DNA of 64,000 nt from Allobosea sp. Tri-44 (GTDB lineage Bacteria; Pseudomonadota; Alphaproteobacteria; Rhizobiales; Beijerinckiaceae). The notes beneath the pieces are model-generated. The model was not told where the DNA came from. It saw only the letters and a program-made list of their open reading frames with translations, and made no database searches. This document shows positions 7,614-39,733 of this stretch, piece after piece. The stretch is from assembly GCF_004123845.1 (NCBI RefSeq), contig NZ_NBDP01000030.1, positions 682,001 to 746,000 on the forward strand, written 5' to 3'. The stretch's first letter is position 1; each line of letters opens with the position of its first letter. The position numbers and the translations under genes are program-made.

Positions 7614-8411
7614 CTAGCCCTTGTAGACGACAGGCCCCCGCCCCGCCGGCGCGCCCTCGCCCTTTCCGCCGAACATGCCGATCAGCGGCAGGTTGCAGAC
7701 GCCGCCCAACTCGCTCTCCAGCCCCATGATGGCGCGCTCGGCCCGAACGGCCTCACGCGAGGGCATCTCGACGACGAGGTTGTCGAGCGAGAAGCGATAG
7801 CTCTTCAGCCTGAAACGAGCCCGTTCGCAGACCCAGAGCATCAGCCCTTCGTTCTCCGCGACGCGCTGAGTGGCCGGATCGCGCTGCTCGGGCGGCACCT
7901 GCTGGGAGGCATCGAGGGCACGCAGCCGAGCGCGATCGGCATTGATGACCCGCAAGGCGTTGGCGCGGAACTGGCCGAGCAGCAGCCGGTCGCCATTGGC
8001 GTCTTCGGCCAGCCGATTATAGCGCGACGCCTGCGAGGCGAACGAGCCGGAGGTCAGGGCGCGATGGTAGGCGGCGACGTCGTTCGACTGGGCCTCGACC
8101 GGCAGGATACGGGCATGGGCGAGCTTGGAGACCTCCCGTTCGAAATGACTGCGCTCATGGGCAGGCAGGACAATCCGCCAGGCGCGGGCCCGCAACTGCT
8201 CCTCATCGTCGGTCATATGAAACCAGGACGAGGCCTCGCCGCGGAAGCGCGCGCTCCACTCGCCGACGGCCGGCGCGATCTGGTCAGCGAAGATGTTTGG
8301 ACGGGGACGGCCGAGATCGCCGGTGGTCGAGCAGCCGGCGAGCAGCAAAAAGGACAGCGCCGCGGCTGCGATGGAGTGGGATGCGAAACAGTGGGAACCG
8401 GCTTTCCGCAT
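7614..8411 (-). CDS. Hypothetical lipoprotein
   Basis: A 265-residue secreted protein with a signal peptide ending in the lipobox LLLAGC near residue 27, so it should be lipid-anchored. The body is helix-rich with many Arg, Ala and Gln. It holds two Cys besides the lipobox Cys (VCERARF and GGVCNLPL), plus one near residue 8. No known family was recognised. The start codon and first dozen residues (MRKAGSHCFASHS) lie inside a dispersed palindromic repeat. The only in-frame alternative start is TTG at 8414, so the repeat has either supplied or extended the N terminus. Confidence 0.7.
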   Translation of the reverse strand: MRKAGSHCFASHSIAAAALSFLLLAGCSTTGDLGRPRPNIFADQIAPAVGEWSARFRGEASSWFHMTDDEEQLRARAWRIVLPAHERSHFEREVSKLAHARILPVEAQSNDVAAYHRALTSGSFASQASRYNRLAEDANGDRLLLGQFRANALRVINADRARLRALDASQQVPPEQRDPATQRVAENEGLMLWVCERARFRLKSYRFSLDNLVVEMPSREAVRAERAIMGLESELGGVCNLPLIGMFGGKGEGAPAGRGPVVYKG

Positions 8412-38143: not shown

Positions 38144-38596
38144 ATGACAATCTTGTCTCAAGCCCTGCGCCCGGCATTCCTATCCGCAGCTTTTGCAGCG
38201 CTCTTCGCCTTTGCGGCGCCCGCACTCGCCCAGCAGAGCGGCCAGCGCGTCACCGTCACCGGTGAGATCAGCGACAGCTGGTGCACGATCAGCGGGCTGA
38301 TGTTCGCCAAAGGCACGGCGCATCATCAATGCGCCATCTGGTGCGCCCTCGGCGGCATCCCGGTCGCGATCCGCGACGCCGGCGGCAATCTCTACCTGAT
38401 CCTGAAGATCGGCGACGACGAGGACAGCGCCGCAAATCCGCGCGTGGCGAAGCTGGCGACGCATGAGGTCACGGTCGATGGTGAGCTGCTCGAGCGCGAC
38501 GGCGTCAAGTACCTGCTGGTCGACCGCATCGCCGACGACAAGGGCGTCATCACGATGACGCATGAAGAACACGGCATCCAGCCGTTCGGGAATTGA
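38144..38596 (+). CDS. Secreted Cys/His-motif protein of SCO operon
   Basis: A 150-residue exported protein: signal peptide to about residue 29 (FAAPALAQ), then an OB-like beta-rich domain. It opens VTVTGEISDSWC and holds the striking cluster Cys 47, His 60, His 61, Cys 63, Trp 66, Cys 67 (HHQCAIWC). Such spacing suits copper, haem or thiol chemistry. No experimentally studied family is known to me. ATG 38144 is preceded by a short A-rich stretch; the long frame upstream is antisense to pheS. It is followed four bases later by a related gene and then an SCO gene. Confidence 0.75.
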   Translation: MTILSQALRPAFLSAAFAALFAFAAPALAQQSGQRVTVTGEISDSWCTISGLMFAKGTAHHQCAIWCALGGIPVAIRDAGGNLYLILKIGDDEDSAANPRVAKLATHEVTVDGELLERDGVKYLLVDRIADDKGVITMTHEEHGIQPFGN

Positions 38597-38600
38597 GGCG

Positions 38601-39116
38601 ATGGATACTATCGTCAAGGCACTCGGCGTCGCTGCGTTGCTCGCGGGCACGCCGTCCCTTGCTGCCGAGCCCTGGAACATCCCGCACGAAAAGCAGATGG
38701 TGTTGAAGGGGCGCGTCGTCGATGCGCTGTGTCAGCTCAAGGGCCGCTGCACGCCAGATTGCGGCGGCGGCAAGCGGCAGCTCGGGCTCGCACTCGCCGA
38801 TGGAACCTTCAGGCTGGTGGCGAAATCGAACATCGACTTCGCCGGCGCGACCGGCGACCTCGCCGGCTATTGCGGACGCGAGATTGAGGCCGACGGCCTG
38901 CTGATCGAGAACCCGGCGGTGACCCTGTTCTTCGTGCAGCGCCTGCGCGAGCGACCGGATCAGGACTGGATCGCCGCCGAGCGCTTCAAGGCCGATTGGG
39001 AGGCCAGGAACGGCAAGGCAGAGGAATGGTGGCGCGGCGATCCTCAGGCCAACCGGATCATCGCCGAGGATGGGCCGTTCGGCATCAAGGGTCTCGCTCC
39101 CAAGCCGAAGCCATGA
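38601..39116 (+). CDS. Secreted Cys-rich protein, second in SCO operon
   Basis: A 171-residue exported protein with a signal peptide ending near residue 22 (TPSLAAEP). The start of the mature domain, MVLKGRVVDALC, parallels VTVTGEISDSWC of the gene before it, and ADGTFRLVAK parallels its AGGNLYLILK, so the two look like diverged paralogues. Cys 44, 50, 54 and 91 form a different pattern (C-x5-C-x3-C). GAGGCG just before ATG 38601 supports the start. It overlaps the SCO gene by ATGA. Confidence 0.75.
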   Translation: MDTIVKALGVAALLAGTPSLAAEPWNIPHEKQMVLKGRVVDALCQLKGRCTPDCGGGKRQLGLALADGTFRLVAKSNIDFAGATGDLAGYCGREIEADGLLIENPAVTLFFVQRLRERPDQDWIAAERFKADWEARNGKAEEWWRGDPQANRIIAEDGPFGIKGLAPKPKP

Positions 39117-39733
39117 CCGGACGGATCAGTCGCCGTCTCCTGCTCGCCGGCCTTGCTGCCAGCTCGGTGGTTGCCGCGCGCGCACAGGATCATGGTGGCC
39201 ACAGCCCCTCCCCGGCCGCCAGGCCACCGCAAGACCCGCTGGCGACGCAGTTCGGCGGCCCATTCAGCCTGACCGACCATAGCGGGAAGCGCGTCACCGA
39301 GGCCGATTTTCGCGGCCGCTTCATGCTGGTCTATTTCGGCTTCACCCGCTGCACCGACACCTGCCCGGTTGACCTGCCGATCATCGCGCATGCGCTCGAC
39401 GCGCTCGGGCCTCTGGCCGCGAAGGTCGCGCCGCTGTTCATCAGCGTCGATCCGGTCAACGACAGTCCAGCCGCCATGGCTGTCTACGTCGCGAACTTCC
39501 ATCCCCGGCTTGTCGGGCTATCCGGCAACGAGGCCGAGCTGGCAGCGGTCGCCAGGGCCTACAAGGTGCATCGCCGCAAGCTGACGCAAGCGCATCACGG
39601 CCATGGCGAATATACCATCGACCACGGCTCGCTGACCTATCTGATGGGACCGGACGGCCGCTTCCTGACCCTGCTGCCGCATAATTCCGGCGCCGAACGC
39701 ATGGCGGGCGTATTGCGGAAATACATCTCGTGA
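39113..39733 (+). CDS. SCO1/SenC-family copper chaperone/thiol protein
   Basis: A 206-residue exported thioredoxin-fold protein of the SCO family, which delivers copper to the CuA site of cytochrome oxidase or acts as a thiol reductase. The ligands are Cys 80 and Cys 84 in RCTDTCPVD and His 171 in DHGSLTYLM. The N terminus MTGRISRRLLLAGLAAS looks like a Tat-type signal. A His-rich patch (QAHHGHGEY) precedes the ligand His. It is coupled to the two Cys-rich secreted proteins upstream. No oxidase gene is nearby. Confidence 0.9.
   Translation: MTGRISRRLLLAGLAASSVVAARAQDHGGHSPSPAARPPQDPLATQFGGPFSLTDHSGKRVTEADFRGRFMLVYFGFTRCTDTCPVDLPIIAHALDALGPLAAKVAPLFISVDPVNDSPAAMAVYVANFHPRLVGLSGNEAELAAVARAYKVHRRKLTQAHHGHGEYTIDHGSLTYLMGPDGRFLTLLPHNSGAERMAGVLRKYIS

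Follow-up and report, generated by a model that had tools for sequence, protein, structure and literature searches.

A candidate periplasmic copper or thiol system of alphaproteobacteria combining a SCO protein with two paralogous cysteine-containing proteins of predicted OB fold

Background

Genes for SCO proteins are widespread among bacteria, in some cases without the namesake oxidase. Known SCO proteins serve haem-copper or multicopper oxidases, and can donate Cu(I), electrons to disulfides, or both. The locus considered here raises the question of what such a protein might do where its gene adjoins not an oxidase gene but the genes for two small, exported-looking proteins with conserved cysteines, hereafter P1 and P2. 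We sought an answer in the gene order and distribution of the three genes, the relationship between P1 and P2, their predicted folds and sites, and their genomic contexts.

Results and discussion

Organization of the locus

Coordinates of the module are positions in the window, the 64,000-nt stretch of DNA that was analysed, of which it takes up 38144-39733. The three open reading frames claimed for this stretch in a preliminary description of the DNA are all present, and all lie on the + strand: P1 (38144-38596, +) codes for an exported-looking protein of 150 aa, P2 (38601-39116, +) for its exported-looking paralog of 171 aa, and the SCO gene (PF02630; 39113-39733, +) for a protein of 206 aa with a CxxxC motif (C80/C84) and His171. 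The two cysteine motifs quoted in that description, HHQCAIWC and C-x5-C-x3-C, are likewise real. P2 starts 4 bases past the stop codon of P1, with a ribosome-binding-like GAGG ahead of it, and overlaps the SCO gene by 4 bases; this operon-like spacing is the same in the nearest relatives. The module is flanked by a divergent pheS on one side and by a gene of the next unit on the other. The region between pheS and P1 (38044-38143, no strand assigned) contains two blocks conserved in Bosea, GCTAG-GGCAATC and GCTGGCAAAGCA, which are possibly a promoter or operator, for either pheS or P1. A sigma-70 consensus scan of this region returned no promoter, and the consensus scan yielded neither a promoter nor a terminator on the + strand.

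No COX1 gene was found in the window and the nearest one lies at contig position 800617, at a distance of some 79 kb, in agreement with the original observation that no oxidase is nearby. The whole genome codes for four COX1 proteins and for three further SCO proteins besides that of the module; no other relatives of P1 were found in it.

Phyletic distribution and co-inheritance of the three genes

Co-occurrence of the three genes elsewhere had been named beforehand as a test that could refute the preliminary description, and the description passes it. Across 398 evenly drawn Pseudomonadota genomes, full-length P1 and P2 were recovered in the identical nine genomes and in no others, and in each of the nine, which include the genome of the window and G375, SCO comes directly after the pair. 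The hypergeometric value for the overlap of P1 and P2 is 1.6e-18, a figure that assumes independent genomes, ignores relatedness and is hence overstated. These nine genomes belong to eight genera from several families and orders, and the distribution is patchy, the module being absent from a congeneric genome (G388). When named genomes were scanned for close relatives, 35 loci came up, in Alphaproteobacteria only; the pair is intact in all 34 that are readable, the last being cut by a contig end. The SCO gene directly follows the pair in 24 of the 33 named loci with enough sequence; the remaining nine come from Magnetospirillum types, Pelagibius, and marine or Rhodospirillaceae bins, and the SCO proteins placed on our tree from four genomes with no adjoining SCO (G299-G302) are of the other type described below. 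The P1-P2-SCO order and its tight spacing are kept even though, beyond Bosea, the surrounding genes show no conservation. Two loci, L046 (8001-10765) and L049 (4511-7178), display the order P1-P2-P1'-P2'-SCO with one SCO gene, indicating that the pair duplicates as a unit.

The pattern excludes a chance adjacency of the three genes. The earlier view of them as one unit thus stands as regards a conserved unit with an invariable P1-P2, and gives way as regards SCO, which is not adjoining in nine of the 33 named loci: P1-P2 is the constant core of the module, and an adjoining SCO is usual and not obligatory. Because the three genes travel together across many alphaproteobacteria, we propose that P1-P2-SCO very likely represents a single undescribed periplasmic copper or thiol system.

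The same distribution bears on an alternative in which the module is a cryptic assembly set for a copper enzyme encoded elsewhere, either a haem-copper or a multicopper oxidase, with P1 and P2 replacing PCuAC-type carriers. The four COX1 genes would supply enzymes of the kind served by known SCO proteins; however, three other SCO genes are present in the genome, the module SCO falls on a separate branch from these, and no oxidase gene was seen beside the module. Moreover, no more than 9 of the 398 sampled genomes carry the module, and the same-genus G388 does not, while oxidases are near-universal in the sampled group. A precedent for such a role is offered by CutF of Rhodobacter, a small CxxxC protein that the multicopper oxidase CutO cannot do without (PMC8456105). 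Taken together, we regard a role in oxidase assembly as improbable.

The SCO protein of the module

The module protein scores 157.3 bits against PF02630, for which the curated cut-off is 22.8, and its C80, C84 and H171 are invariant in 17 module SCOs. Family score and residues alike identify it as a true SCO, with the CxxxC motif and His intact as first reported. In a phylogenetic tree, 23 module SCOs are split by a single branch (support 89/90) from 17 other SCOs, all of which come from P1-P2-carrying genomes, three of them from the present one; shuffling of the labels gave an expectation of 13.2 changes, and none of 500 shuffles was as low. This points to a dedicated lineage that is likely rather than proven, as the dividing branch lacks strong support.

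Characterised SCO proteins have a single N-terminal membrane anchor. When inspected by eye, the module SCO of this genome presents a twin-Arg-like signal peptide with no evident membrane anchor; most module SCOs start in a signal-peptide-like manner, and a twin-Arg motif occurs in 21 of 32, whereas in most other SCOs the start looks like an uncleaved anchor. The module SCO appears to be exported and is probably soluble. The version in the window also contains the His-rich stretches DHGGH and HHGHG; by the same inspection many of the module SCOs are rich in His. Such tails are strongest in the Bosea SCOs, and those of the Rhodobacterales-like and Kiloniellaceae groups have weak ones or none. 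Thus, while the module SCOs share with the SCO1/SenC/PrrC family (PF02630) a score above the cut-off and the CxxxC motif with its distal His, they differ in grouping apart, in the apparent signal peptide that takes the place of an anchor in most of them, in the His-rich tails of the Bosea group and in adjoining, as examined, P1-P2 and not an oxidase.

P1 and P2 are paralogs with a shared cysteine core

The parallel openings of the two small proteins, noted in the preliminary description, reflect homology by several lines of sequence comparison. A profile-profile comparison of P1 with P2 gave an hhalign probability of 97.5 (E 8e-12), and the P2 profile, used as a query, recovered the P1 of three genomes at E 1.5e-6 to 8.6e-4. 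As shared signal peptides could inflate the score, we removed them before realigning the two profiles; the alignment then scored 57-61 against a maximum of 21.6 in 100 column shuffles, which excludes a chance likeness of the openings. We accordingly consider P1 and P2 to be true paralogs.

The alignment pairs C47, C63 and C67 of P1 with C44, C50 and C54 of P2, defining a common core of the form C...C-x3-C. The claim that their cysteine patterns differ therefore holds for the length of the loop and for the fourth conserved residue (His60 in P1, Cys91 in P2), but not for this core: the loop of P1 is longer and includes M53 and H60, and P2 has the additional fourth cysteine, C91. The P1 motif reads D44-x-W46-C47-x5-M53-x6-H60-x2-C63-x3-C67-x2-GG, and G40, E41, D44, W46, C47, M53, G57, A59, H60, C63, A64, W66, C67 and a GG are invariant in 31 sequences. 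Its three cysteines (counted beyond residue 34) are kept in 43 of the 44 copies that are readable through the motif, the lone exception being L066, in which Tyr replaces C47. A 45th copy, in L067, has an in-frame TAG at position 8121, where DxWC has its invariant Trp, and is either a real pseudogene or the product of an assembly error. In P2, C44-x5-C50-x3-C54 and C91 are conserved, and every copy has exactly these four cysteines save that of L064, which lacks the equivalents of both C54 and C91. Because these two are lost together there, we propose that they probably form a disulfide pair, with the proviso that one such event is thin evidence.

Family affinities, fold and predicted sites

The candidacy of the locus as something undescribed has held up, in that neither of the two small proteins matched any family in Pfam, NCBIfam or PHROGs. 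Sequence searches against solved structures returned nothing useful, a plasmid search for P1 led nowhere, and literature searches on the module, on SCO with OB-fold partners and on Bosea SenC returned no paper on P1 or P2 among the sources within reach, most subscription journals lying outside these. Two weak Pfam similarities of P1 were rejected as falling below the cut-off, namely DUF4431 (15.7 of 27 bits; sub-threshold in 10 of 31 homologs) and DUF5818 (13.3 of 24 bits; sub-threshold in 5 of 31 homologs).

AlphaFold models built from the alignments (mean pLDDT 76.8 for P1 and 85.9 for P2) arrange five strands in the order of an OB fold and place the motif in a helical insert that follows strand 1; this insert comprises two helices in P1, and P2 has extra C-terminal helices. 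The best matches in the PDB are OB-fold proteins, albeit weak ones (Foldseek E >0.001, Z about 6), and both Foldseek and VIA-align recovered the general OB fold with no outstanding match. P1 and P2 are accordingly predicted to be OB folds, the structure matches backing the fold and nothing beyond it. Both are probably exported, going by signal peptides recognized by eye. On the predicted helix of P1, H60, C63 and C67 occupy positions i, i+3 and i+7 and thus lie on one face, with C47 on the preceding helix and M53 nearby, an arrangement that most likely would provide a soft-metal site formed by C47, H60, C63 and C67.

The nature of the ligand can be read in another way, with P1 as a zinc, iron or haem-related OB protein for which SCO would be no more than a housekeeping reductant. 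Zinc is commonly bound by a Cys3-His set, and two Magnetospirillum-type loci (L056 and L057) have multihaem cytochrome genes near the pair; yet these loci are related and the link is limited to them, and the conserved Met together with the linkage to SCO favours copper. We therefore view another metal or ligand as very improbable.

A SCO protein with a small periplasmic partner is in itself a known kind of system, as in the SCO plus PCuAC relay, which the module resembles in having the partner gene nearby. P1 and P2, however, match neither PCuAC nor any other Pfam family: PCuAC gave no match to either at E up to 1, nor to their 31 and 32 homologs at 0.1, which rules out membership. With CusF/SilF, P1 and P2 share small size, an exported look, the predicted OB fold and a proposed soft-metal site, but CusF/SilF binds metal through His, Trp and two Met (PMC10656224), unlike P1 with its three Cys, His and one Met, or P2 with its four Cys. 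The Pfam CusF family matched neither protein nor their homologs and MxM is absent among the conserved residues; lacking both the His-Trp-Met-Met site and a family match, they are not members of that family. A further comparison is with the DUF2946-related CutF of the cutFOG operon, a small Sec-exported periplasmic protein with CxxxC and a C-terminal proline motif that is encoded beside a multicopper oxidase (PMC8456105). Although P1 and P2 are also small, exported-looking, CxxxC-containing and encoded beside a copper gene, they occur as a paralogous pair, give no match to DUF2946 and lack the proline motif, their conserved C-termini being free of PP, so that a DUF2946/CutF-like assignment is ruled out. 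Thus, P1 and P2 as partners, and the P1-P2-SCO arrangement, appear to be new, although the SCO family itself is known.

Genomic contexts and a distant P1-like domain

In Pelagibius marinus (L064), a gene for a CopI-like cupredoxin lies directly upstream of P1-P2, a single case; the flanking genes otherwise offer no pointer to copper. The links of the module to copper are indirect and consist of the SCO family, the His-rich SCO tails and this one CopI-like neighbour. In two Magnetospirillum-type loci with no adjoining SCO, multihaem cytochrome genes occur beside or near P1-P2 (L056, 8905-10074; L057, 4406-5581).

We also recovered a distant P1-like domain, homologous to P1 with E down to 1.4e-10 and with the C-M-H-C-C motif kept, for which we found no name. 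This Cys3-His domain ends a membrane-anchored two-domain protein of about 250 aa (L030, 7221-9073; L032, L033, L111 and L112), whose gene adjoins or follows that of a membrane protein in which an MsrQ-like (ferric-reductase-like) domain is fused to a Rieske domain. On Rhizobium plasmids, the equivalent arrangement is annotated as a hypothetical protein beside a Rieske protein. It differs from P1 in its anchored two-domain architecture and in belonging to another operon with no P2 or SCO adjoining, and this operon may be a separate undescribed redox system. A Rieske-glutamate-synthase fusion is found in both contexts: in L055 (6034-7641) it precedes P1-P2-SCO, and in L032 (8290-9978) it precedes the operon of the MsrQ-like/Rieske protein and the P1-like domain, the two fusions being 78% identical. 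Although single loci, these MsrQ-like/Rieske and Rieske-glutamate-synthase neighbours point to redox chemistry.

Such contexts are relevant to the idea of a metal-free thiol-disulfide relay, with SCO as a thioredoxin-like reductase or oxidase and P1 and P2 as its disulfide substrates or as oxidant scavengers. The encoding of the P1-like domain behind an MsrQ-like/Rieske membrane protein could be understood as an electron supply, and the joint loss of C54 and C91 from the P2 of L064 is what a disulfide pair would be expected to show. The fold of SCO proteins resembles that of thioredoxin, and one of these proteins has been proposed to act as an oxidoreductase (review PMC7558416). On the other hand, the odd number of cysteines in P1, three, along with its conserved His and Met, looks more like a ligand set than like disulfides, and the copper-type His171 is kept in the module SCOs. 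We hence treat a purely thiol-based relay as a possible but somewhat unlikely explanation.

Proposed mechanism

The reading we prefer, and to which we would assign about an even chance, is a periplasmic Cu(I)/thiol relay that works independently of an oxidase, SCO being the donor and P1 and P2 its clients. SCO, through its CxxxC motif and His, would be dedicated to supplying Cu(I), or electrons for disulfides, or both, and transfer would run from it to the paralogous OB-fold proteins, which would thereby be metallated or reduced. P1 would hold a soft metal at C47, H60, C63 and C67, and P2 would hold or relay copper or disulfides through its four cysteines, of which C54 and C91 are probably paired. 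The task of the module would then be periplasmic copper handling or thiol protection and not oxidase assembly. As a counterpoint to the copper relay, the Cys3-His set could equally bind zinc, and the cysteines may be structural disulfides.

More speculatively, P1 and P2 might be the founding members of a new family of cysteine metalloproteins, OB-fold carriers of copper or electrons in the periplasm, with Cys3-His-(Met) and Cys4 as variants of one site, SCO as their dedicated maturation factor in this module, and the distant form wired to the quinone pool via the MsrQ-like/Rieske membrane protein; in this full extent, we consider the proposal rather unlikely.

Conclusions

The module joins what is likely a dedicated SCO lineage to two fixed partners of no named family, and does so in culturable Bosea and Magnetospirillum-type bacteria, through which the role of SCO proteins that lack an oxidase can be put directly to the test. 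Should P1 bind copper, this would represent a second, cysteine-based way of turning the OB fold into a periplasmic copper protein.
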